Notes under the pieces: model-generated | Seen by the model: the letters and a program-made list of their open reading frames with translations, nothing else | What the model was told of the DNA's origin: nothing | Databases searched by the model: none | Part shown: piece by piece, positions 9,399 to 30,876 of the stretch | How the letters are laid out: every line of letters begins with the position of its first letter | Numbering within the stretch: the first letter of the stretch is position 1 | Made by a program: the position numbers and the translations under genes | DNA from: Micavibrio sp. | Lineage (GTDB): Bacteria; Pseudomonadota; Alphaproteobacteria; Micavibrionales; Micavibrionaceae | Length of the DNA: 38,455 nt | Direction of reading: 5' to 3' | Assembly (NCBI GenBank): GCA_012960155.1 | Contig: DUBU01000039.1 | Span: forward strand, 338,683 to 377,137

Positions 9399-10607
9399 AT
9401 GATTGCTGAAATTAAAACCATGACAAACAAACCTTCACTTAAACCTGAATTCGACTGGCAAGACCCACTGTATTTAACCGAGCTTCTTAGTGAAGAAGAG
9501 CGCATGGTCATGGAAACAGCCCGCGGATACGCGCAGGAAAAACTTATGCCTGGCATTATAGAAGCCAACCGCCATGAAAAATTTGACCCACAAATTATGC
9601 GTGATATGGGTGAACTTGGCCTATTAGGCAGCTTTATAGATGGCTATGACTGCTCCGGCGTGTCTCAAGTATCATATGGCCTGATTGCGCGGGAAATCGA
9701 GCGCGTGGACAGTTCATACCGCTCTGCTCTCTCCGTACAATCTTCACTGGTGATGTACCCTATCTACACATTCGGAACCGAGGACCAGAAAAAAAAGTAC
9801 CTGCCCAAACTGGCATCTGGAGAATTTATCGGCTGTTTTGGCCTAACTGAGCCCGATGGTGGTTCTGACCCAGGCGGCATGACTACACGTGCCAAAAGCG
9901 TAGACGGCGGCTTTAAAGTTTCAGGAAATAAGCAATGGATTACAAACTCACCAATTGCCGATGTCTTTGTCGTCTGGGCCAAAAATGACGAAGGTAAAAT
10001 TATAGGCCTAATCCTTGAAAAAGGCATGGAAGGTCTGACCGCCCCAAAAATTGAAGGTAAATTCTCCCTGCGCGCATCCATTACAGGCGGCATTTCTATG
10101 GATGAAGTGTTTGTGCCTTCTGATAACCTGTTACAAGTCGAAGGCCTTACAGGCCCCTTCTCATGCCTGAACAGCGCACGCTATGGCATTTGCTGGGGCG
10201 CGATGGGCGCGGCTGAAGCCTGCTGGCATCAAGCACGTGACTATGTCATGGAACGTATCCTATTCGGCAAACCATTGGCCGCACAGCAGCTCATTCAAAA
10301 GAAACTCGCCGATATGCAGACAGAGATTACTCTTGGCACAATATCAGCTTGGCGCCTAGGCAGCCTACGTGATGCTAAAAAAGCAGCACCTGAAGCTATA
10401 TCAATGTTAAAACGCAATAACTGTGGTAAAGCCCTTGATATAGCCCGTATAGCCCGCGATATGCTGGGTGGAAATGGCATTGCCGACGAATATCATGTAA
10501 TCCGCCACATGAACAATCTCGAGGCTGTGAACACCTATGAAGGAACACACGATATTCACGCCCTGATCCTAGGACGCGCCCAAACGGGAATACAGGCATT
10601 CTCTTAA
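9399..10607 (+). CDS. gcdH: Glutaryl-CoA dehydrogenase
   Basis: This enzyme oxidises and decarboxylates glutaryl-CoA to crotonyl-CoA in lysine, tryptophan and aromatic degradation. It is an FAD enzyme of the acyl-CoA dehydrogenase superfamily. The 402-aa protein has [19 protein letters not shown], whose Arg108-Ser109 correspond to substrate-binding residues of known glutaryl-CoA dehydrogenases. It also has the FAD motif [30 protein letters not shown], and the catalytic segment [17 protein letters not shown] with Glu381. This combination separates it from short-chain acyl-CoA dehydrogenases. The ATG at 9399 has only a weak AAGAGA site; ATG at 9420 is a possible alternative. It is a lone plus-strand gene, convergent with the pseudo-receiver gene, with 3 bp between their ends. 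Confidence 0.95.
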
Positions 10608-10610
10608 AAA

Positions 10611-11699
10611 CTAGTCTTCAGAAGATCTATAGCGACCCGTTTTAGGGTCAAGGTTTATAACTGACACTTCGCCTTCAACCTCGGCTGAACGGTCAGCTAC
10701 ACCGCCATGATCATCGTAATCACGGCAAGTTAAGCCTGACAAAGGATTGGGTTCTTGTTCTAGGCGCTGCGCCAAAGACTTGGCACTATTATAGCCTTCT
10801 GTGTCCAGACTGCGGTGTAATTGATTATAGTCATTATCCGCACTGCTCATATTATCGAACTTACCACGAACACCCATTGGCATAGTCTGGATAATCTTTT
10901 CAATTTTAAAAAGCTCTGATTCAGAAACTCCGCCACAACGGAACATCTCTATAATCTCTTCCCATATAGAATCAAAACCGCGCAAACCCACCATTTGACT
11001 AGCGGCCTCAAGCTGTGCCTCTTCCTGCTGGGCTATACTTTCTTTCGTAGCAGTTTGCGCAAACCTCAGCTGGCGAGCAACCAGCTCGTGATGTGTGATG
11101 TAATGACCGAAAAGCGTTGCAACCATATCAACGCCTTGGTCGCGCTCCGGCCATAAATCAAGTGTTGCCGCTTTACGAACCGCACGCTCCGGCTTATCAC
11201 TATTCTTAGTAGAGCTCCCATCAGCACGTCTATCAGGACCACTATATGACGGATCATCGATACGACGCCTATCAGGCCCCTTGTATTCAGTGGACTCTAC
11301 AAAATCCCGCTTGTTATTAACGACATACGTAACAACACGCATAAGGGCATCAACCGTAAACGGGGCTAACAGCAACTCACTAAAGCCAGAATTACGAACA
11401 TCTTGCACCGATAGATCATCTGTCTTGCCCGTCACTAAAATAATAGGAACCGATTTTAAATCATCAGAAAGTCCGCGTATATTTTGTGCCAGCCATTCAC
11501 CGTTTTTCTCACCGATATTAAGCTCGGTGATAACAACATGAGGCTTACGAGATTTATAAAGTTCTAGCGCTGAAGCACCATCAAACGCTTCATAAACATT
11601 ACGGATGTTATGTATCTTGAGAGTTTTTACAATTTTTCCGCGCATAGACGCATCTGCATCTGCGACAAGAACATCAATGTTTGAAAAGTTTAACGCCAT
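10611..11699 (-). CDS. Pseudo-receiver domain protein with GPDRR motifs, unknown output
   Basis: This 362-aa protein has an N-terminal CheY-like receiver domain (about 7-130). The phospho-acceptor position is Glu59 (HVVITELNIGEKNG) instead of Asp, the conserved Lys is Ala112 (LLLAPFT), and one acidic-pocket residue is missing (VLVADADA). Thr90 is kept. Phosphorylation by a histidine kinase is therefore unlikely, and Glu may mimic the phosphorylated state. Two GPDRR motifs follow at 141-145 and 154-158, then a helical, Gln/Glu-rich region (about 190-290) and an acidic C-terminal tail; I recognise no output domain. It lies 18 bp downstream of a membrane-protein gene, which is 16 bp downstream of a MarR-type gene, so the three look like one operon. 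Function unknown. Confidence 0.85.
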   Translation of the reverse strand: MALNFSNIDVLVADADASMRGKIVKTLKIHNIRNVYEAFDGASALELYKSRKPHVVITELNIGEKNGEWLAQNIRGLSDDLKSVPIILVTGKTDDLSVQDVRNSGFSELLLAPFTVDALMRVVTYVVNNKRDFVESTEYKGPDRRRIDDPSYSGPDRRADGSSTKNSDKPERAVRKAATLDLWPERDQGVDMVATLFGHYITHHELVARQLRFAQTATKESIAQQEEAQLEAASQMVGLRGFDSIWEEIIEMFRCGGVSESELFKIEKIIQTMPMGVRGKFDNMSSADNDYNQLHRSLDTEGYNSAKSLAQRLEQEPNPLSGLTCRDYDDHGGVADRSAEVEGEVSVINLDPKTGRYRSSED

Positions 11700-11717
11700 A
11701 ATAAACCCAAAAAATAA

Positions 11718-12320
11718 TTAGCGTAATGCTACAGCAAGACCAAGATCCTGTGCAAGCGTTGTTGCAAATTGCGACGCCTCCTGCATGCTGTTGAAATCAT
11801 TTATATTAATCGTTTTACCCTTATCCGTTTTATGCACTAAAAATACAGCATATCTGGTAATTCCTTTTTTTGTCTTAACCTTTCCGGTTGTAACACCTAA
11901 AAATTTACCAATACGCTCTTTTTGTGGACGGCCGGACACCCCGAGCCCTAATGCACCCAAATTAAAAAATGTCACACCATCACTCTCAAGTACATATCGG
12001 CCGTAATTGGCCTGACGCGGAATAACGATTTTCAGAAAAATGAAATACTCAATAATAATCAGAAATACGATGCCCCCACTAACCATCATCAATTGCTGGC
12101 TCTCGATAAAGCTCCCATCATGCGCTAAAAATTTTAGCCCCGTGCCGATAACCACCAAAAGGACTAAAGTCACCAAGGCAAGCATACGCATGGTGCCAAT
12201 CCATCGAGATTCACCCTCAATCGGGAAATTTGTACGAGATGTAGGAGATTTAGGAAGTGGTTCGTTAGAAGGGGGTAATTCGGCCTTCAGCTCTTCAGTC
12301 TTATCTGATGCCTCCGACAT
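11718..12320 (-). CDS. Two-helix inner-membrane protein of unknown function
   Basis: I do not recognise a named family. The 200-aa protein has a Pro/Ser/Glu-rich cytoplasmic-looking N-terminus (1-38), two hydrophobic helices (about 46-66 and 77-100) joined by a short loop, and a C-terminal domain of about 100 residues. That domain (GRYVLESDGVTFFNLGALG, then FLGVTTGKVKTKKGITRYAV) alternates beta-like segments and ends in an amphipathic helix, reminiscent of a PH-like fold; this is inference only. ATG at 12320 has a GGGGGG site. It sits between the MarR-type gene (16 bp) and the pseudo-receiver gene (18 bp), in a tight minus-strand run. Confidence 0.75.
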   Translation of the reverse strand: MSEASDKTEELKAELPPSNEPLPKSPTSRTNFPIEGESRWIGTMRMLALVTLVLLVVIGTGLKFLAHDGSFIESQQLMMVSGGIVFLIIIEYFIFLKIVIPRQANYGRYVLESDGVTFFNLGALGLGVSGRPQKERIGKFLGVTTGKVKTKKGITRYAVFLVHKTDKGKTININDFNSMQEASQFATTLAQDLGLAVALR

Positions 12321-12336
12321 ATCCCCCCACTAAATG

Positions 12337-12798
12337 TTAAATGCCTGAAAAGCTTGATTGGCTTGCCCAGAAGCGTTCCAGCATATGCATAGTTTTATTG
12401 AGCTCCTGCAGTCTTTCACCTGAAAGCTCTGTACCAGCAATCTTTTCATTGTGACGCTGGAACATGGCTGTAATCAGCTCGCACAGTTCCTTGCCTTTAT
12501 CAGACAACTTAACACGGATAGAACGCTTATCATGGACTGAACGCTCCTGAATAAGGTAACCGTTCTCAACCATCTTTTTAACGTTATAGGAAACGTTAGA
12601 ACCAAGGTAGTAACCACGAATCGTCAATTCACCAACCGTAAGCTCGTCATGGCCGATATTGTACAAGATCATGCTTTGTACGTTGTTGATGTCTTGAATG
12701 CCCTTACGGTCTAATTCAACTTTTAAAACGTCCAGAAAGTGCCTGTGAAGGCGCTCGATCAGCTGAATCGCATCGTAATATGGTGTCGCGGTTGTCAC
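12337..12798 (-). CDS. ldtR: MarR-family regulator, LdtR-like
   Basis: This winged-helix transcriptional regulator has 153 aa. The N-terminus YYDAIQLIERLHRHFLDVLK and the segment RGYYLGSNVSYNVKKMVENG (recognition region), followed by the wing SVHDKRSIRVKLSDKGKEL, closely match my recollection of LdtR. LdtR is the alphaproteobacterial MarR protein first characterised in Liberibacter and Rhizobium as a regulator of an L,D-transpeptidase gene. The start is a GTG (12798) with AGGGG about nine bases upstream. An L,D-transpeptidase gene is in this window but about 14 kb away. The MarR assignment is firm; LdtR orthology is likely but from memory. Confidence 0.85.
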   Translation of the reverse strand: MTTATPYYDAIQLIERLHRHFLDVLKVELDRKGIQDINNVQSMILYNIGHDELTVGELTIRGYYLGSNVSYNVKKMVENGYLIQERSVHDKRSIRVKLSDKGKELCELITAMFQRHNEKIAGTELSGERLQELNKTMHMLERFWASQSSFSGI

Positions 12799-12830
12799 GG
12801 TTATAACCCCTATTAAAGTTCGAAATCTGT

Positions 12831-12844
12831 ATGACGAATGTCAT
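12831..12844. promoter_or_regulatory. Inverted repeat upstream of ldtR-like gene, candidate operator
   Basis: ATGAC (12831-12835), GAAT, GTCAT (12840-12844) is a perfect short inverted repeat. It lies 33 bp before the GTG start, just downstream of a plausible -10 element. MarR-family proteins commonly bind such repeats and repress their own genes, so this is a candidate autoregulatory site. Repeat seen; binding inferred. Confidence 0.35.
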
Positions 12845-12855
12845 TATCAAAAAAC

Positions 12856-12883
12856 ATTCTAATCAAAACCATATGTTACGCAA
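12856..12883 (-). promoter_or_regulatory. Candidate sigma-70 promoter for the ldtR-like operon
   Basis: On the minus strand TTGCGT (12883-12878) is separated by 16 bp from TAGAAT (12861-12856), a fair -35 and a good -10. Transcription would begin around 12849, just before the ATGAC/GTCAT repeat and about 50 bp before the start codon. No other part of the 92-bp gap scores better by eye. Confidence 0.35.
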
Positions 12884-12890
12884 GCACTTC

Positions 12891-13961
12891 TTAGTCAAGT
12901 ATTTGCTCTACATTAAGAAAATAGTCGCTTACAAGTGCATCACTAACAGCAGACAGGTTCGCAGGCTGCCATACGGGCTTACTGTCTCTGTCAATCAAGA
13001 CAGCACGCACGCCTTCGTAAAAATCATGAGCTTTCAAAAAGTTCTGCGCCAAAACAAAGTCGCGTGCAATTACACTATCAAAATCATCGTTCTGCGCCAT
13101 TCTGAAGTGCTGTAGTGCCACCTTAACACTTAAAGGTGACCTCGATTGTAGCAGCTCTAACTTCTCAGCACACCATGGGTCATCTTCAGCTTTCAGCGCT
13201 GCAACAATGTCCTCAACGGTATCCAAACCAAAACAACGATCGATCAATACCTGCTTATCCTGCAGAACAGACGCTGCCTCTGGCGCGGAAGAAAATTCAT
13301 CCATTAAAGTCTTTAACGCGGCATCATCGCCTTCAAACGCTAGCAGCGCCTTCATAAAATCAGGCTGAATATCTTGCGGAATATAGTGTGTTGCAAGACC
13401 ACAATACATTATATCAGCCACAGGTATTCGATCACCTGTAATAGACAGATAAGCGCCAATCTCGCCCGGCGCCTGCGCTAAATAATAAACACCGCCAATA
13501 TCAGGAAAAAAGCCAATCGCTGTTTCAGGCATAGCAAACAGACTATCCTCGGCACAAATACGATAGCGGCAAGCCCCCGCAATACCATAGCCGCCCCCCA
13601 TTACAATGCCATTCATCAAAGCAATCAGAGGTTTGCGGGCATGAAAAAGACTACGGTTCAGACGATACTCATCGGCATAAAAAGAGGCTGCCTCCGCAAG
13701 AGTAATCTCACCCTGCTTAAACGCCGTACCGGCCATATGAGCAGCCTTCACATCGCCGCCAGCACAAAAAGCGCGATCCCCTGCCCCTTTTATCAATACG
13801 GCCTTAACACGCTCATCACGTTCCCATTCAGGTAAATAATGCGTAAAGCCATCAATCATTTGATAGCTAAGAGCATTCAAAGCCTTCGGGCGGTTCATTG
13901 TTACTTGAACTAAAGCGCCCTCTTGCTGTAATAATAATTCCGGCTCGCTGGTATTCTCCAT
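12891..13961 (-). CDS. 3-hydroxyisobutyryl-CoA hydrolase (enoyl-CoA hydratase family)
   Basis: The enzyme removes CoA from 3-hydroxyisobutyryl-CoA in valine breakdown. The 356-aa length exceeds that of ordinary enoyl-CoA hydratases and fits this subfamily. Seen are MNRPKALNALSYQM, the oxyanion-hole segment AFCAGGDVKA, ALMNGIVMGGGYGIAG, and AMPETAIGFFPDIGGVYYL with the acidic pair Glu146 and Asp154 expected of HIBCH, followed by GLATHYI. I chose ATG 13961 (MENTSEPEL); neither it nor an in-frame TTG at 13991 has a clear ribosome-binding site. It is divergent from hemB with only 46 bp between the starts. Confidence 0.92.
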   Translation of the reverse strand: MENTSEPELLLQQEGALVQVTMNRPKALNALSYQMIDGFTHYLPEWERDERVKAVLIKGAGDRAFCAGGDVKAAHMAGTAFKQGEITLAEAASFYADEYRLNRSLFHARKPLIALMNGIVMGGGYGIAGACRYRICAEDSLFAMPETAIGFFPDIGGVYYLAQAPGEIGAYLSITGDRIPVADIMYCGLATHYIPQDIQPDFMKALLAFEGDDAALKTLMDEFSSAPEAASVLQDKQVLIDRCFGLDTVEDIVAALKAEDDPWCAEKLELLQSRSPLSVKVALQHFRMAQNDDFDSVIARDFVLAQNFLKAHDFYEGVRAVLIDRDSKPVWQPANLSAVSDALVSDYFLNVEQILD

Positions 13962-14007
13962 GGCAGAAAGACTAGCAGTACCCTCAATCAAAACAAGAAG
14001 AATTAAA

Positions 14008-15051
14008 ATGGCTGACGGAAAAACTCTTGATAACGTAATTCAGGCAAAGCAAATGGGTCGTGCAAATATGAAGCATGACATGACAACACGCATGCGCAGA
14101 GGCCGCAGTTCGCAAGGTATTCGTAACCTATTGCGCGAGAATGACCTTCTGCCGAACCATTTGATCCTCCCGCTATTTGTTGAAGAGAATGCCACAGAAC
14201 GTCAACCTATCGCCTCCATCCCGGGTGTTTACCGCGAGACAGAAGACAGTATCGTGCAAATCGCCAAAGAAGCCGAAGAGGCTGGCTTGGGCGGCATCAT
14301 GCTATTCGGCGTCTCACATAATAAAGATCATAGTGGCAGCGATAGCCTGAAAAAAGGCGGCTTGCTCGATCGCATGATCAGTCGCGTCAAAGACGCAACG
14401 TCGGATCTGCCAGTTATCGCTGATTTGTGCTTCTGCGAATATACAGATCACGGTCATTGTGGCCCGTTAACGGAAACAGGAACCGTAGATAACGACATCA
14501 CAATTGAGAACATCGCAAAACAAGCCGTAATCGCGGCAGACGCAGGCGCAGACATAGTTGCGCCATCAGGTATGATGGACGGTCAAGTTTCTGCCATCCG
14601 CAGCGGTTTGGACGAAGCAGGCTTTGAAATGACACCTATCATGGCCTACGCCGCCAAATACGCTTCACATTTCTATGGTCCGTTTCGTGATGCTGCCGGA
14701 TGCAGCCTACAAAAAGGTGACCGAAAGACATATCAGATGGACTACGCCAACGGTGACGAAGCCTTGCGTGAAGTCGCACTAGATATCGAGGAAGGTGCCG
14801 ATATGGTCATGGTAAAACCCGGAATGCCTTATCTGGATATAATTTGGCGTGTGCGCGAGACATTTGCTATGCCGACATTCGCCTATAATGTCAGCGGTGA
14901 GTTCGCCATGTTGAAATTCGCAGCTGAAGCCGGCTGTCTTGATTACAACAATGCCCTGATGGAAATGTTAATGTCATTCCGTCGCGCGGGAGCCCAAGGC
15001 ATACTCACTTATGGTGCTTTGGATGCTGCAAAAATAATCAAAAACAGCTAA
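14008..15051 (+). CDS. hemB: Delta-aminolevulinic acid dehydratase (porphobilinogen synthase), zinc-type
   Basis: HemB condenses two 5-aminolevulinate molecules to porphobilinogen in haem synthesis. The 347-aa protein has both active-site lysines: Lys217 in AYAAKYASHFYGPFRDAAG and the Schiff-base Lys270 in MVMVKPGMPYLDII. The metal-loop DLCFCEYTDHGHCG carries three cysteines (141, 143, 151), the zinc-binding arrangement. Many alphaproteobacterial HemB proteins instead have Asp/Ala there and use magnesium. Overall phrasing resembles the Bacillus/E. coli type. ATG at 14008 has a weak AAGAAG site; the longer frame overlaps the divergent gene. A monocistronic unit is likely. Confidence 0.96.
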   Translation: MADGKTLDNVIQAKQMGRANMKHDMTTRMRRGRSSQGIRNLLRENDLLPNHLILPLFVEENATERQPIASIPGVYRETEDSIVQIAKEAEEAGLGGIMLFGVSHNKDHSGSDSLKKGGLLDRMISRVKDATSDLPVIADLCFCEYTDHGHCGPLTETGTVDNDITIENIAKQAVIAADAGADIVAPSGMMDGQVSAIRSGLDEAGFEMTPIMAYAAKYASHFYGPFRDAAGCSLQKGDRKTYQMDYANGDEALREVALDIEEGADMVMVKPGMPYLDIIWRVRETFAMPTFAYNVSGEFAMLKFAAEAGCLDYNNALMEMLMSFRRAGAQGILTYGALDAAKIIKNS

Positions 15052-15143: not shown

Positions 15144-16790
15144 ATGGCAGACAAAGGCAGCTTAAAGGAACAGCGCGACCGCTTCTTGGCGTTCTCTTTC
15201 GCGTCAGCTGACTTGTTTTTGGAGCTCGATGATGCAAAGAAGATAGTATTTGCCTTAGGAGCAGCCAAAAGCCTTACTGGCATCGACCCAGAACAATTAG
15301 AAGGAAAGTATTGGCTCGATATTCTTGCAGAAGAGTGCCACCCGCACGCTATTCGCCTTCTTAAGGGTGCAAAAGATGCGGTCCGCAAAGGCCCTATAAA
15401 AATCCGCATGACAGAAACTTTGGCCAATGGTTGCGAAGCCATCCTGACAGCTATCAAAATGCCGGATAACAAAAACATCTATCTGACTATCGGCTTTGCG
15501 ACAGAGGTAATGCAGCAACTCGCAGAAATTGTCAGCGAGAACGAAAAAGCCGAACTCATGGATAAACAAAGCTTTCTGCACGCTGCGCAAGAAGCATTTG
15601 ACCATGCCAGAACTATCGGCGCAGACGCCGAGCTGACAATGTTCGAGTTTCCGCGAACCACCGAAATCAAAGAAGTCTTAGGGGCTGAACTTTGGGATCA
15701 ATTGACCGAAACAATTACAGACGTTCTAACCATGTCCTCTATTGATGGTTACTCAGCCGCCATCGTTGAGGAAGGTAAATACAGCTTCATCCACGATCAC
15801 TCCGTTAATCCTGATGATATCCGTGAGCAACTAACGCAATTATCCAAAGATAAAGACCCGAATGGTGAAGGGTTTGATATTCAGGCCAAGACGGTAACAG
15901 CAGAGCTAGAAAGTCTCAGTGAACGTGAGACCACTAAAGCCCTCGTCTATACAATCAATGAATTTGAGCGCAAAGGCGCTGATTTCAATATTGAAACCCT
16001 CAATACGGGCTTTAAAGCCTATGTCAGTGCAAACGCCCAAAAAATTCACGAATTCAAAACAGCAATCGAACAGCTGAACTTTAATCTGACATTCCAACCT
16101 ATCGTCGATTTACAGGCAAAAACAGTCAGCCATTTCGAGATACTATCAAAGTTCAAAAAAGGAGAATCAACACAGGAATGGATCATTTTCGGCGAAGATA
16201 TCGGAATGGCGGCAGACTTTGATATGGCTGTTGTGGAGCGCGTACTTAACTATCTGCGCTACAAAGGCGCAAATAACAGCATGACGTTCTCAATGAACCT
16301 GTCTGGTCAATCCATGCAAAACGAACAGTTCTTCAAAACACTGATGGCAAAACTTGAACTTCACCCCAACTTAGCCAAACGCATGATCTTCGAAATCACA
16401 GAATCATCGACAATCAAAGAACTTGAGCTGGTCAATCACTTCATCAAACAGCTGCAAACAGCGGGCTTCAAAGTATGTCTTGATGACTTCGGTGCAGGCG
16501 CCGCTTCATTTAAGAGCATACAGCAACTCCACGTTGACTTTGTGAAACTCGACGGTCAATACACTAGACGCATTTTGAGTTCACACAGAGACCAAATTAT
16601 GGTCAAAAATCTGGTGCAAATGTGTGCCGATCTTCATGTTCCGGTTATTGCCGAACAGCTCGAAACCATAGAACACGTGGATAAAATGCTCGAGCTCGGC
16701 GTTGACATGGGGCAAGGATACTATTTCGGCTACCCTCTATCCAATCCCGCATACGATCCGGATAAACTTCCAGCAAAGCCCCAAAAATAA
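15144..16790 (+). CDS. PAS-EAL domain protein, probable c-di-GMP phosphodiesterase
   Basis: This 548-aa protein has no obvious transmembrane segment. Residues about 10-125 look like a PAS sensor (LFLELDDAKKIVFALGAAKS, GKYWLDILAEECHP). Residues 135-295 form a middle region I cannot assign, possibly a degenerate GGDEF. The EAL domain spans about 305-540. The signature is EILSK (Glu332) in place of ExLxR, but the metal and catalytic residues are kept: Asn385 (SMNLSGQ), Glu417 (FEITES), Asp447-Asp448 (LDDFGAG), Lys468 (VKLDG) and Glu504 (IAEQLET). Phosphodiesterase activity is therefore plausible. It lies 162 bp before motA on the same strand, which suggests a role in motility control. The start has a GGGGAT site. 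Confidence 0.88.
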   Translation: MADKGSLKEQRDRFLAFSFASADLFLELDDAKKIVFALGAAKSLTGIDPEQLEGKYWLDILAEECHPHAIRLLKGAKDAVRKGPIKIRMTETLANGCEAILTAIKMPDNKNIYLTIGFATEVMQQLAEIVSENEKAELMDKQSFLHAAQEAFDHARTIGADAELTMFEFPRTTEIKEVLGAELWDQLTETITDVLTMSSIDGYSAAIVEEGKYSFIHDHSVNPDDIREQLTQLSKDKDPNGEGFDIQAKTVTAELESLSERETTKALVYTINEFERKGADFNIETLNTGFKAYVSANAQKIHEFKTAIEQLNFNLTFQPIVDLQAKTVSHFEILSKFKKGESTQEWIIFGEDIGMAADFDMAVVERVLNYLRYKGANNSMTFSMNLSGQSMQNEQFFKTLMAKLELHPNLAKRMIFEITESSTIKELELVNHFIKQLQTAGFKVCLDDFGAGAASFKSIQQLHVDFVKLDGQYTRRILSSHRDQIMVKNLVQMCADLHVPVIAEQLETIEHVDKMLELGVDMGQGYYFGYPLSNPAYDPDKLPAKPQK

Positions 16791-16952: not shown

Positions 16953-17819
16953 ATGAAAATCGCTGCGCTTTTATTCATCTTTATTTGTGTGTTTGGCGGC
17001 TTCATCCTATCGGGTGGTAAAATGGAGCCTGTGCTAAAAGCGCTACCTTTCGAGATAATGATTATCGGCGGCGCTGCCGTGGGTGCCTTCCTGATTGCTA
17101 ACTCGATGCATACAGTTAAGGCAACGCTTAAGGGCTTGAACTGTATGATCAAGCCAGAAGCACATAATAAAGAATCCTATTTAGAACTACTAAGCGTATT
17201 ATTTATGCTTTTCAAACTCGCGCGCTCAAAGGGCTGGCTTGCTCTGGAATCTCACATCGAAGAACCAGAGGCAAGCGACCTATTTAGCCAGTTCCCTGGT
17301 TTCCAGCATAACCATCACGCTGTTCACTTCCTTTGTGACTACCTACGTATCATTTCTTTGGGTAACGAAAACCCGCATGAAATCGAAGCTCTGATGGATG
17401 AAGAGATTGAAACGCTGGAGCATGAATTTATGCATCCTTCTCACGCAATGCAGACAATGGCCGACGGTATCCCGGCCCTGGGTATTGTTGCAGCTGTTTT
17501 GGGCGTTATTAAGACTATGGGTTCCATTACCGAGCCCCCTGAAGTTCTCGGTAAGATGATTGGTGGCGCCCTAGTGGGTACATTCCTTGGTGTGTTTCTG
17601 GCCTATGGCTTTGTGGGCCCTCTGGCAGGTGCACTTGCCACAAAAGGTGAATCACAAATACTTTATTATCGCGCAATCAAAGTCGCCATGCTGGCCTTTT
17701 TGAACGGCGCCGCTCCGCAAGTAGCTGTGGAATTTGCTCGCAAATTCCTGCCCCACCATGTACAGCCGACCTTCCTTGAACTCGAAGAGAAGCTCAACGA
17801 ATTACCTAGCCCGGGCTAA
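16953..17819 (+). CDS. motA: Flagellar motor stator protein MotA
   Basis: MotA with MotB forms the proton-driven stator of the flagellar motor in the inner membrane. The 288-aa protein has four hydrophobic segments. Key residues correspond to those of E. coli MotA: Arg91 and Glu99 in the cytoplasmic loop (RSKGWLALES) that interacts with FliG, and prolines 174 (GIPALGIVAAVLGVIKTMG) and 222 (VGPLAG) near the channel. It starts at ATG 16953 and is 12 bp upstream of motB, so it is co-transcribed with it. The 162-bp upstream gap should hold the promoter; I found no convincing sigma-28 or sigma-54 site. Confidence 0.96.
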   Translation: MKIAALLFIFICVFGGFILSGGKMEPVLKALPFEIMIIGGAAVGAFLIANSMHTVKATLKGLNCMIKPEAHNKESYLELLSVLFMLFKLARSKGWLALESHIEEPEASDLFSQFPGFQHNHHAVHFLCDYLRIISLGNENPHEIEALMDEEIETLEHEFMHPSHAMQTMADGIPALGIVAAVLGVIKTMGSITEPPEVLGKMIGGALVGTFLGVFLAYGFVGPLAGALATKGESQILYYRAIKVAMLAFLNGAAPQVAVEFARKFLPHHVQPTFLELEEKLNELPSPG

Positions 17820-17831
17820 GGAGATTTACCC

Positions 17832-18860
17832 ATGGCTAAAGGCGGCAAGCAAGACGAACTCCAACCTATCATCGTTAAGAAGGTCATCAAAAAAGGTGGC
17901 GGCCATCACGGCGGCGCATGGAAAGTGGCGTATGCAGACTTTGTGACAGCTATGATGGCGTTCTTTTTGCTGCTCTGGCTACTGAATGTAAGCACTGATG
18001 ACGCGCTAGAAGTTATCTCCAGTTACTTTGACCCCTCCCACCCAAAAGTCTCGACATCCACCAGTGGTGCCGGCGGCGTTATGGGCGGCCTGACAATGAC
18101 CCCTGACGGTAGCATGGCCGAAAACAGACAACGTCCAGTCCCGCAACAAAACTCAGGCACGAACCAAATGGGTAAGGACAGCAAAGACAATACGATAAAA
18201 AAACTGGAAGAAGAACTGCGCGCAGCTGAGAACAAAAGATTTGAAGAAGCTAAACAAGAACTTGAAGAACAGCTTCGCACAAACCCTGAGCTTGCGGAAC
18301 TTGCAAAGCATTTGATGGTAGACATTACGCCGGAAGGTCTGCGCATTCAGATTATTGATCAAGAAGGTAAGCCCATGTTTGCTTCGGGCAGTGCAGAAAT
18401 GCTGCCTAACATGGAAAAGCTAATGTCACAGGTCGCTGGCGTAATTATTCCTATGCATAACGATGCATCTGTGAGGGGCCATACAGATGCCGTCCCCTAC
18501 CCGCCTGGCGCAACCTACACAAACTGGGAACTATCTGCAGATCGTGCAAATTCTGCCAGACGAGCCCTAATCGGTGAAAATGTGCCCAAAGAGCGCATTG
18601 GCAACGTGATGGGCAAAGCAGACACGGAGCATTTAATAGAAGACAACCCACGCGATCCGCAAAACCGCCGTATAAGTATCATCATGCTACGTGAATCTTT
18701 GGCCGAAGCTTATGAACGCGGCGCCTTTGATGAGAGCGAGATAGATCAGGAAACTGAAGACGCGATTGAAAGCGGTGATTATAGAAATTATTTGCCGCAA
18801 ATCAATGATTCTCCGACTGGTAGCTTCCAGAAAACGCCAGGATCGGTATATTTCCCTTAA
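17832..18860 (+). CDS. motB: Flagellar motor stator protein MotB
   Basis: MotB anchors the stator to peptidoglycan and carries the proton-binding residue. The 342-aa protein has a cytoplasmic N-terminus (KKGGGHHGGAWKVAYADF), a single transmembrane helix (FVTAMMAFFLLLWLLNV) with the essential Asp36, a Gly/Gln-rich plug/linker, a Glu/Lys-rich helix (about 117-155), and an OmpA-like peptidoglycan-binding domain (about 160-285) with VRGHTDAVPYP, NWELSADRANSARR and DPQNRRISI. Preceded by CTAAGGAG, an excellent ribosome-binding site. The acidic C-terminal extension of about 55 residues after the OmpA domain has no assigned role. Confidence 0.96.
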   Translation: MAKGGKQDELQPIIVKKVIKKGGGHHGGAWKVAYADFVTAMMAFFLLLWLLNVSTDDALEVISSYFDPSHPKVSTSTSGAGGVMGGLTMTPDGSMAENRQRPVPQQNSGTNQMGKDSKDNTIKKLEEELRAAENKRFEEAKQELEEQLRTNPELAELAKHLMVDITPEGLRIQIIDQEGKPMFASGSAEMLPNMEKLMSQVAGVIIPMHNDASVRGHTDAVPYPPGATYTNWELSADRANSARRALIGENVPKERIGNVMGKADTEHLIEDNPRDPQNRRISIIMLRESLAEAYERGAFDESEIDQETEDAIESGDYRNYLPQINDSPTGSFQKTPGSVYFP

Positions 18861-25767: not shown

Positions 25768-26370
25768 CTAGGCTTGGTTCCAACGACGCACTTGACCGGT
25801 ATCCATATGCACGAAGTTGCTCTTCGCGTAATAACCGACGCCGCCTGAACGCATACCTTGTGCAAAATCCGCAAGCTTTCTGGTACTTACGCCCGGAAGA
25901 CGCACATCAATCGCCTGCCCTGTCATGTGCAGAGAGTTGCGAGCGACACCTGTCCCATTACGTGCCAAAGTAGAATTTGTCTTCGGTGAACGGTAACCTG
26001 AAAGCACTTCATAAGGTGTTTTCACGTTAGCCTTCTCACGAACAGCAAAAAGAATATCAACCACACGCGGATCAATTGGGAATACTTCGCCGGTTCTGAA
26101 ATCGCGCAGTACCTCGTTGATTTGCTCAAAAGCATCAGGCAAATAACGGCCACCAACTTTAAACGCGCCGCTAAAGCTTTCGCCAGTGTGTTGGTTGCGG
26201 AATGAAATTTTCTGGGCACCAGCATCTTTACCAGGGGACAACAAAGACGCAGCATTCGCTACACCTGCACCCATCGCTGCTAAAGCTATACCGCCTAATG
26301 CACCTCCGGCGAGTATGCGGCGACGTGCCATAAATAGTCCGGAATCAGTTTCAATAAATTGATCAGGCAT
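25768..26370 (-). CDS. Tat-exported DUF882/M15-type peptidoglycan peptidase-like protein
   Basis: The 200-aa protein has a twin-arginine signal (ARRRILAGGALGGIALAAM, Arg16-18, probable cleavage after ANA at about 40) and a C-terminal DUF882/YcbK domain of the M15 metallopeptidase fold. Zinc-ligand-like residues are present: SLHMTGQAIDVR (His148, Asp155) and FVHMD (His188). The conserved VLSGYRSPKTNSTLA precedes them. The family is thought to act on peptidoglycan in the periplasm. The start at 26370 has a strong GAGAGGG site, although the Tat signal proper starts at residue 14. First gene of a unit with folK and folP; an L,D-transpeptidase gene lies upstream. Confidence 0.92.
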   Translation of the reverse strand: MPDQFIETDSGLFMARRRILAGGALGGIALAAMGAGVANAASLLSPGKDAGAQKISFRNQHTGESFSGAFKVGGRYLPDAFEQINEVLRDFRTGEVFPIDPRVVDILFAVREKANVKTPYEVLSGYRSPKTNSTLARNGTGVARNSLHMTGQAIDVRLPGVSTRKLADFAQGMRSGGVGYYAKSNFVHMDTGQVRRWNQA

Positions 26371-26618: not shown

Positions 26619-28364
26619 TTAATTAGCAGATGCATACGCTTGGTTTGCATCGCCACGCCCTGCCAGCTCCGTATCACGAACCTCAGGGAAGCTATACGCT
26701 TCATTAGCTGCCAACACTTCCAGCAATTCCTTATCACGTTTGTATACATCAGGACCAAATACCAGTTTGCCTTTCGTATCCATCCACATGGTGTGGTAAA
26801 CAATATAAGCTGGAAACGGCTTATCAATTTTTAAATCAGTCATCTTGCCTGTATTCACAATACGATCGAAATCAGAAGATGACCAACCATCAGTACCTTT
26901 CATGACGAACTGTGCAATCTTCTCAGGTTCTGAAAGTCTCACACAACCAGAGCTATAAGTACGCTGCGTGCGCTCGAAAAACTCAGGATGGTTCGTATCA
27001 TGGAAGTAAATATTATACTTATTAGGCATCAAGATGCGCACACGCCCAAGAGCATTGTGATCACCGGATGACTGAACCATACGCAGCTTACCCATTTCAG
27101 ACCAAGTCATATTCGCCCAGTCTACAGAGTATGGATCAAGCGTTTGTGCTTCGCTACCATAGCCACGGATAACTTCAATACCTTTATTGACTAAGTAGCC
27201 AGGATCTTCTTGTGCCTTAGGCAAAAGATCCTTCATCTTGATACTCAAAGGCGCAGTCCATGTTGGGTTCAAACGAACACCAGTAACATCGCTTTTAAAG
27301 TCTTTTGTGCGACGCCAAGGCATACCGACTACAACTTTCATTTCATGCTCAACGCGGCCATCTTCAACAGCCCATAGGATCTGCTGCGGTATATTCACCA
27401 GTAAGTAACGCTCAGGTAACGTTTGTGTAAGCCAGCGCTGGCGCTCCAAATTAGCAACTACCTGCTCCATACGTGCGCGATTAGTAAGGTTCAAAACTTG
27501 TAATGTTTGAGGACCTAAAATACCATCGGGTTCAAGATTATGCTCGCGTTGAAACTTCATGACAGCAGCCGCCGTCTTATCGTCATAATAGTTCGGCTTA
27601 CCAAGTGTCTCATCATAAGTGACACCTAAACGGATACGCAGATTAGGAACATCACGGCTCACCTCACCTGGTGTGAAATGATGATCTCCGCCAAATGACA
27701 TAGGCAAAACATGATCATATGCCGCACGTTCTTCGGACAGTTTTACAAGCTCTTCCTGCAGCGCCTTATAAAGCTTATGCTGCGGCGCCATCTTTTCAAG
27801 ACGCTTGACTGGATTACGAGTGGCTGAAATTTGTTCTAAGACAGACAAGGCTGTGTATGGCTGCTGCCAGTAATCAGAGCTGGAATTAATCGATTTAGGA
27901 TCAATGCGCATTCCACTGACATCCTGACCATAACGAATTGCCGCATCAGTCAAAAGCAGTTCAAGCTCTCCCTGTGAAGAAGCAAAGCCCCCCTGCATCA
28001 TTTCACGAATTTCAGAAAAGTGATATTTTTCAGGGTTTAAACCATGTGTCCATGAATTAGCAATGAGCTCAAGCATTTCACGTGCCTCGCTCTGATCCCA
28101 GAACGGCTGTTTCTCACGTGCAGCGTAAAAATCGCGCATTGCTTTCTTATCTTTAAAACGAATACCGCCGAGCTTACCGCGCTCAAGAGCATTACTCACA
28201 GATACCTTGTAGACCATCTTCTGAAGGCTATTGCTTCCCGCAACGGAAGCATCAGGTGCCATTTGCTGCGCACTCGATACAACAGAAAAACCGAGCACTG
28301 CGATTGTAAACAATAGCACTCCGACAAATAACTTTAATTCATTATATTTCTTAATTAGCTGCAT
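26619..28364 (-). CDS. L,D-transpeptidase, YcbB/LdtD-like
   Basis: The enzyme makes 3-3 (L,D) cross-links in peptidoglycan or attaches proteins to it. The 581-aa product begins MQLIKKYNELK, followed by a hydrophobic signal/anchor segment (about 10-33) ending in SSAQQ. An N-terminal scaffold domain follows, then a peptidoglycan-binding helix bundle (YYDDKTAAAVMKFQREHNL, DGILGPQTLQVLN), then the YkuD catalytic domain with IYFHDTNHPEFF (His455) and YSSGCVRLSEP (catalytic Cys474). ATG at 28364 has AGGGG eleven bases upstream; the longer frame is unsupported. The presence of an LdtR-like regulator in the window makes it a plausible regulated target. No obvious co-transcribed partner. Confidence 0.94.
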   Translation of the reverse strand: MQLIKKYNELKLFVGVLLFTIAVLGFSVVSSAQQMAPDASVAGSNSLQKMVYKVSVSNALERGKLGGIRFKDKKAMRDFYAAREKQPFWDQSEAREMLELIANSWTHGLNPEKYHFSEIREMMQGGFASSQGELELLLTDAAIRYGQDVSGMRIDPKSINSSSDYWQQPYTALSVLEQISATRNPVKRLEKMAPQHKLYKALQEELVKLSEERAAYDHVLPMSFGGDHHFTPGEVSRDVPNLRIRLGVTYDETLGKPNYYDDKTAAAVMKFQREHNLEPDGILGPQTLQVLNLTNRARMEQVVANLERQRWLTQTLPERYLLVNIPQQILWAVEDGRVEHEMKVVVGMPWRRTKDFKSDVTGVRLNPTWTAPLSIKMKDLLPKAQEDPGYLVNKGIEVIRGYGSEAQTLDPYSVDWANMTWSEMGKLRMVQSSGDHNALGRVRILMPNKYNIYFHDTNHPEFFERTQRTYSSGCVRLSEPEKIAQFVMKGTDGWSSSDFDRIVNTGKMTDLKIDKPFPAYIVYHTMWMDTKGKLVFGPDVYKRDKELLEVLAANEAYSFPEVRDTELAGRGDANQAYASAN

Positions 28365-28477
28365 AACTTGAAAATCCCCTAAAGAGCCCCCTTGAAAGGC
28401 TTTGACCTTCCTATGATGCCGCAAAAGAATTAAAAGAGACTTACTGTTATATGGCAATTGATATTTATTCGACATAG

Positions 28478-28497
28478 CTGACTGAACCAACAGTCAG
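28478..28497. repeat. Inverted repeat between ilvD and the L,D-transpeptidase
   Basis: CTGACTG (28478-28484), AACCAA, CAGTCAG (28491-28497) is a perfect 7-bp inverted repeat in the 180-bp gap after ilvD. The minus-strand sequence after it is not T-rich, so a simple intrinsic terminator is doubtful. It could also be an operator for the transpeptidase gene, 114 bp downstream. Nothing else is seen in the gap. Confidence 0.35.
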
Positions 28498-30303: not shown

Positions 30304-30876
30304 TTAGCTGGTAGCGTGCGTATCTTCATACGTATTCAGGCACTCATCCAGCTCATTACGAAATGCCAAAGCATCGGCAATAAAAGGAATTGCTGTATTG
30401 CGGCTACCCGTGCCCATAATGACAACACTGGCATAACCAAGTATCTGTCCCATGATCGTGCGCTCTGTCTCAACAGACTCGATGCGGCTATGACGGATCT
30501 GGATCGTATCAACGCGCAATATACCATGGCGCAGGAACACACGACGGTTTGTTAGAACAAGTAGCAGAAAATGCTTATACAGCGTAGCAAGACAAAACAT
30601 GATAAAGGCTACAAACGCGACAAAAATGCCCAAGTTAAACGTCGGGATATTGATAATCAGAATCAGCGCCAAGATACCAACCGCCACTGTCTTCCAGTAA
30701 ATGCCCGGGTGGATAGTAGCAACGCGCAGTATCTCCTCACCCTCTTGTAAAAGAGCGTGAATACCTTCAGAACTTTGTCTATTTTGAAATCTCTTGTGAG
30801 GTGGCACTGTTTGCTTAGCTTGCTTAGGAGCCTTTACCTGCTTAGTCTGTTTGTTAGGCGTCTGATTATCAGTCAT
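30304..30876 (-). CDS. Bacterial PH-domain (YdbT/DUF304-like) membrane protein, second of a pair
   Basis: This protein of 190 aa has a basic Lys/Gln-rich N-terminus (NKQTKQVKAPKQAKQTVPPH) and a helical hairpin of hydrophobic segments (about 65-102, including VGILALILIINIPTFNLGIF). The C-terminal bPH2 domain has VLTNRRVFLRHGILRVDTI and IRHSRIESVETERTIMGQIL followed by YASVVIMGTGS. These are the characteristic YdbT/PF03703 elements. Its ATG overlaps the stop of the preceding PH gene by one base (TAATG), so they are translationally coupled and probably act together. The biological role of the family is poorly known; membrane-lipid or envelope functions are suggested. Confidence 0.87.
   Translation of the reverse strand: MTDNQTPNKQTKQVKAPKQAKQTVPPHKRFQNRQSSEGIHALLQEGEEILRVATIHPGIYWKTVAVGILALILIINIPTFNLGIFVAFVAFIMFCLATLYKHFLLLVLTNRRVFLRHGILRVDTIQIRHSRIESVETERTIMGQILGYASVVIMGTGSRNTAIPFIADALAFRNELDECLNTYEDTHATS

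Follow-up and report, generated by a model that had tools for sequence, protein, structure and literature searches.

A candidate Cle-type c-di-GMP effector behind a recurring pair of genes for an LdtR-like regulator and a membrane protein in Micavibrio

Introduction

What joins three closely spaced genes of Micavibrio sp., encoding an LdtR-like regulator, an orphan membrane protein and a pseudo-receiver, and what might the third protein do? The genes lie in a 38,455-nt stretch of contig DUBU01000039.1 (GenBank assembly GCA_012960155.1), the whole of which we call the window. The original prediction, made from the letters of this DNA, treated them as a single module behind one promoter with a MarR-type inverted repeat, possibly coupling envelope state to a signalling scaffold. 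We compared the locus with its relatives in 94 genomes of the order and a sample of 385 genomes of the class. The features discussed below are as follows.

12337-12798, minus strand: LdtR-like MarR-family regulator; GTG start, 153 aa
11718-12320, minus strand: MID, orphan membrane protein; ATG start, 200 aa
10611-11699, minus strand: pseudo-receiver protein, consisting of receiver, arginine-rich region (ARR) and C-terminal domain (CTR); ATG start, 362 aa
11736-12008, minus strand: possible PH-like domain of MID, residues ~105-195, from the structural model and Foldseek
11220-11309, minus strand: ARR, residues 131-160, from the phmmer match to 6sft_A and the motif
10710-11162, minus strand: CTR, residues ~180-330, from alignment A3
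12799-12890, minus strand: region upstream of LdtR; no promoter-like site in the scan and no tight repeat above chance

Results

Gene layout and the region upstream of LdtR

The order of the genes, their common strand and both gaps were as originally described. Read directly, the gap between LdtR and MID covers 12321-12336 (16 bp) and that between MID and the receiver gene 11700-11717 (18 bp), a close spacing that is compatible with an operon. G-rich letters precede all three start codons, those of the receiver gene being the weakest. On the far side, the receiver gene meets a convergent gene for an acyl-CoA dehydrogenase (9399-10607), with 3 bp between the two ends.

The promoter proposed for the three genes did not withstand analysis. 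A scan of 10550-12950 for sigma-70-like promoters and terminator-like sites was negative for promoters on the minus strand, both ahead of LdtR and immediately ahead of the receiver gene, and for terminators throughout. When inverted repeats with 0-8 nt between their arms were sought in the 100 nt preceding LdtR, the longest perfect arms measured 5 nt, a length that 332 of 500 shuffles also reached, and we therefore rejected a MarR-type operator with a tight repeat at this place. The region also holds arms of 6 nt set 12 nt apart, a spacing beyond the 0-8 nt covered by the shuffle comparison.

For comparison we assembled 38 LdtR loci, namely the 30 top matches (window included), 7 lower-ranked matches and 1 locus from the MID search. 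By eye, no palindrome common to the 38 upstream regions was seen. The sequence ATTATGAT occurred in 13 of them (shuffle mean 0.4, maximum 4), all among loci L039-L080, and is absent from that of the window; it could serve as a -10-like element or be bound by a regulator.

A pseudo-receiver with a tandem c-di-GMP motif

Residues 10-123 of the third protein matched Pfam Response_reg (E 5e-13). The phosphosite is degenerate, with Glu59 in place of the phosphoacceptor Asp, Ala15 in place of the second acidic residue and Ala112 in place of the switch Lys; Asp14 and Thr90 are kept. The description of the protein as a pseudo-receiver was thus borne out.

Directly after the receiver comes the ARR, which consists of R131, the tandem copies YKGPDRR (139-145) and YSGPDRR (152-158), and D160. 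When the whole protein was compared with the PDB by phmmer, the 36-residue CleD peptide 6sft_A appeared (E 4.9e-4) among many CheY structures, and when the linker region was used alone it was the sole entry to fall below E 1, with 1.8e-5. In the alignment, RDFVESTEYKGPDRRRIDDPSYSGPDRR stands opposite REWVEAVAYVGPDRRRFNSADYKGPRKR. The motif described for the Cle family is a tandem [YF]XGP[DE][RK]R with Arg before and Asp after it (PMC5677366). Both copies in the window protein fit this pattern exactly, and R131 and D160 flank them as in the published logo. According to the same source, the tandem arginine-rich peptide of the Caulobacter Cle proteins binds c-di-GMP, the cleD allele E70A indicates that CleD also has Glu at its phosphosite, and CleA and CleD remain active when their phosphosites are mutated.

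R102 stands at the place expected for the helix-4 Arg of Cle proteins, a predicted position taken from an alignment that holds no Cle sequence there. Arg fills this column in 13 of the 16 aligned rows; L088 has Lys there, and L082 and L083 have Ile. As these last two carry two exact motif copies, the helix-4 Arg does not seem tightly tied to the ARR. The structure of the receiver predicted without an alignment had a pLDDT of 35.8, too low for the model to be of use. With the helix-4 position left aside, the protein agrees in sequence with the Cle family, and it is most likely a Cle-type protein that would bind c-di-GMP through the ARR.

A phosphorylation-independent scaffold with no affinity for c-di-GMP, in keeping with the reading first proposed, which overlooked the tandem motif, now appears quite improbable. 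The degenerate phosphosite would suit it, as would the existence of fused relatives that lack the ARR. Against it, the window protein alone among the six motif-bearing receivers of its genome has two exact motif copies.

Receivers were matched in all 94 genomes of the order, and at least one motif copy was present in 27 of the 30 receiver loci that were fetched. The six motif-bearing receivers of the window's genome are drawn from 13 matches there; the other five keep Asp and Lys at the phosphoacceptor and switch places, which indicates that a degenerate phosphosite is a mark of the fused kind of protein. Two motif-bearing receivers are neighbours elsewhere in this genome (L095:2389-4553), with KGEERR or KGEEKR as the second copy. 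The genome also encodes FliM, with NQEEIDSLL in its N-terminus, and has nine GGDEF matches.

Three further genes of the window, 2-6 kb upstream of LdtR, bear on c-di-GMP or the motor.

15144-16790, plus strand: EAL protein (Pfam E 2.4e-55)
16953-17819: MotA
17832-18860: MotB

Their proximity does not argue for a joint function, since MotA was matched in 19 and EAL in 8 of 23 LdtR stretches, all of them without a receiver beside LdtR. EAL domains usually carry the motif forms EAL and AEGVE. The window's EAL protein apparently has EIL and AEQLE at these places and keeps DDFG and NLS, and its activity is uncertain.

The C-terminal domain and its association with receivers

Within the C-terminal region of the protein (residues 161-362), the CTR aligns with 11 other sequences. 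It was found in 15 of the 94 genomes of the order, 2 of them with marginal matches, and in 3 of the 385 class genomes, all from the window's family. We looked at 22 CTR genes and set the 2 marginal matches apart. Ten of the remaining 20, the window's included, are fused to a receiver, 5 with and 5 without an ARR, the former counting a frame-split gene in G060 and a gene in G063 with one exact motif copy. The fused form can therefore exist without the ARR. Another 5 follow a same-strand receiver gene immediately, an ARR being present in 4 of these cases, and the last 5 stand alone, one of them (L175) so near a contig end that its neighbour on one side falls outside the contig. The CTR is thus tied to receivers, being fused to one or directly behind one in 15 of 20 genes.

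There was no PDB match to the CTR under E 0.1. Pfam gave scattered weak matches, the best of them to Arg_decarb_HB (E 9.6e-5) and in 2 of the 12 members, while the window member had no match at all; no known family was accepted. In a search of literature listings we recognised no publication on the CTR or on Cle proteins of Micavibrio.

All three genomes of genus g11 (G042, G060 and G065; loci L084, L085 and L086) have a receiver-ARR-CTR gene flanked by ftsA and ftsZ. The receiver gene of G042 stands about 1.5 kb away from ftsA, and the frame-split gene of G060 is that of locus L086. Among 26 ftsZ loci, 25 had no receiver match, 4 of these 25 having no ftsA match in the stretch either.

This position hints at division rather than the motor as the target. 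The window protein might accordingly be imagined to act on cell division or polar organisation, with the CTR as output and c-di-GMP as the gate, and the presence of ARR-bearing fused relatives at ftsA-ftsZ in 3 of 3 genomes speaks for this. We nevertheless consider it unlikely, because the arrangement is limited to that genus, because even there one gene stands well apart from ftsA and another is split, and because the Cle proteins characterised so far act on the flagellar motor (PMC5677366). A Cle-type effector remains our preferred reading of the third gene.

The LdtR-like regulator and MID

The regulator matched the NCBIfam LdtR model NF047395 with E 6.3e-56 and Pfam MarR_2 with E 3.6e-11. 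Its family had been correctly named, though its score of 188.6 bits is below the curated cut-off of 250, and we therefore call it LdtR-like and not an LdtR equivalog. LdtR matches were present in 90 of the 94 genomes of the order, in single copy bar one weak second match. Across the 23 LdtR stretches, hemB was matched in 18, and rpiB and glyA together in 19; LdtR is an old regulator that usually stands in an ancestral hemB…rpiB–glyA block. In the window, hemB (13960-15051) is on the strand opposite LdtR with ECH between them, giving the order hemB-ECH-LdtR-MID.

In Rhizobiaceae, ldtR is reported to lie between hemB and ldtP, and LdtR of Liberibacter to bind its own promoter region and that of the adjoining ldtP (PMC3999280); among the genes under its control are some for motility and the cell wall (PMC5481520; PMC5892913). 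No ldtP was found directly downstream of LdtR in the window, where MID occupies that place. An L,D-transpeptidase (YkuD, PG_binding_1 and scaffold domain) is encoded at 26619-28490 on the minus strand, ~14 kb from LdtR, and is adjoined by an M15_2 peptidase gene (25768-26370, minus strand). By analogy with ldtP of Liberibacter, the transpeptidase is a possible LdtR target. The cell-wall link of the window's regulator comes solely through its homology to the LdtR of Liberibacter and Rhizobiaceae.

Sequence searches with MID gave nothing noteworthy in Pfam, NCBIfam or the PDB. A model built from four sequences (mean pLDDT 66.7; 79-87 per block for residues 131-190) has two predicted helices, at 39-66 and 71-103, followed by strands and a C-terminal helix. 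Modest as it is, this model agrees with the two helices and C-terminal domain foreseen for the protein. Most of the Foldseek rows shown were PH, PTB, FERM or FACT PH chains, the best with E 6.3e-3 and none under 1e-3. VIA gave Z values of at most 7.1, which, according to the guidance supplied with the tool, may reflect no more than a common arrangement. No row of either tool sufficed for a certain fold. None of 5 MID members matched a bPH family of Pfam at E up to 5, a range in which the HMMER filters drop most matches above 0.1. The C-terminal part of MID is likely to be a PH-like domain, possibly cytoplasmic, and on this point the original prediction is probably right, with weak structural support. 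The window encodes another protein with a bPH_2 domain (30304-30876, minus strand; E 5e-13), to which BLASTP found no kinship with MID.

LdtR and MID could together form an envelope-stress unit in which MID has taken the place of the Rhizobiaceae ldtP. The likeness between the hemB-ldtR-ldtP order and that of the window argues for this, as does an L,D-transpeptidase with a PG-binding domain in the same window; the lack of a match between MID and known families, and its absence from 32 of the 38 LdtR loci, argue against it. We hold the idea to be plausible but on balance doubtful, and it is compatible with a Cle-type effector as the product of the third gene.

A recurring pair and a neighbour seen once

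The neighbourhood comparison did not support a conserved three-gene module. Beside LdtR, neither a receiver nor a CTR was present in any of the 37 other loci examined, 14 of which were viewed with ~1.5 kb per side, and MID was present in 5 of them. MID occurs in 5 of the 94 genomes of the order, in 3 of the 4 genomes of the genus and in 1 of the 385 class-sample genomes, the window's own; 3 loci in the named genome collection also carry it, two of them apparently already counted. Each of the 6 distinct MID genes found follows LdtR immediately, on its 3' side and on the same strand, the junction ranging from an overlap of a few nt to a distance of 47 nt, depending on the start codon. In the alignment of MID sequences (A1), two rows were trimmed at the N-terminus.

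In the tree, the window receiver groups with one from the sister genome G063 (support 98/97). That orthologue is on another contig with other neighbours, and the LdtR-MID pair of G063 has no receiver. Further relatives of the receiver are found between ftsA and ftsZ, near gcv genes and among lipoprotein genes. The receiver's absence beside LdtR in the 37 loci, taken with the position of the sister orthologue, shows that the trio is not a conserved module. LdtR and MID are a recurring pair, the part of the proposed module that holds at every MID locus, and the receiver is a neighbour seen only in the window. It may have moved in, or been lost or moved in G063.

We give somewhat less than even odds to the possibility that the receiver is a Cle-type effector whose place is accidental, unconnected with LdtR or MID. 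Its position behind MID at 1 of 38 LdtR loci, the scatter of its family over unrelated places and the separate location of the sister orthologue are what such an accident would leave. The 18-bp gap on the same strand as MID tells against it, as does the scan result for the stretch before the receiver gene, where neither a promoter-like nor a terminator-like site was seen. This possibility shares its c-di-GMP part with the explanation we prefer, and the likelihoods given to the two overlap.

Discussion

We think it probable that the third gene encodes a Cle-type c-di-GMP effector recently placed behind a recurring LdtR-MID pair. In a few relatives MID would have joined LdtR, a long-established regulator in its ancestral surroundings, and LdtR would probably control it, as in Liberibacter it controls ldtP. 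The third gene, for a Cle-type CheY-like effector, would then have come behind MID in the lineage of the window's genome. At high c-di-GMP, the nucleotide would be bound by the ARR, which would dock close to Arg102 of the receiver; the face of the receiver could then bind the flagellar switch (FliM), the CTR could engage a partner, or both. If the genes are co-transcribed, the amount of the effector would follow the LdtR signal through read-through from LdtR-MID. By analogy with CleA and CleD the target may be the flagellar switch, or it may be a division or polar partner.

A broader and rather speculative proposal, to which we assign a low likelihood, is that in the order of Micavibrio the ARR pseudo-receiver passes c-di-GMP occupancy to a lineage-specific CTR, fused or encoded next door, and that one such effector has been captured by the LdtR-MID operon, with envelope state setting its dose.

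If this is true, c-di-GMP control would have a new output in the order of predatory Micavibrio. The preferred reading of the third gene puts a testable candidate c-di-GMP effector carrying the CTR, for which no family was found, in the place of a vague scaffold. The host bacteria seem to be related to predators, and in Bdellovibrio, an unrelated predator, c-di-GMP is reported to control predation (PMC3271064). Genes of this kind apparently also end up in different operons, as seen behind LdtR-MID in the window and between ftsA and ftsZ in another genus.

Comparison with known systems

MID resembles bacterial PH-domain proteins (PDB 3hsa and 3dcx among the Foldseek rows) in the possible PH-like fold of its C-terminal part, and differs from them in lacking a Pfam bPH match and in its weak structural scores.

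With LdtR of Liberibacter asiaticus and Rhizobiaceae, as described in PMC3999280, PMC5481520 and PMC5892913, the window's regulator shares a family-level match, a nearby hemB on the opposite strand and a same-strand gene right behind it. Unlike in those bacteria, ECH lies between hemB and the regulator gene, the gene behind it is MID and not ldtP, and the score falls under the NCBI equivalog cut-off.

Set against the Caulobacter Cle proteins (PMC5677366), the predicted window protein differs in that its C-terminal region is a domain of ~150 aa conserved among relatives within the order and that its gene stands behind LdtR-MID. It is like them in having a single receiver followed directly by a tandem arginine-rich motif, an Arg at the place predicted for helix 4, a phosphosite that is replaced where theirs is replaced or not needed, and a further C-terminal region.
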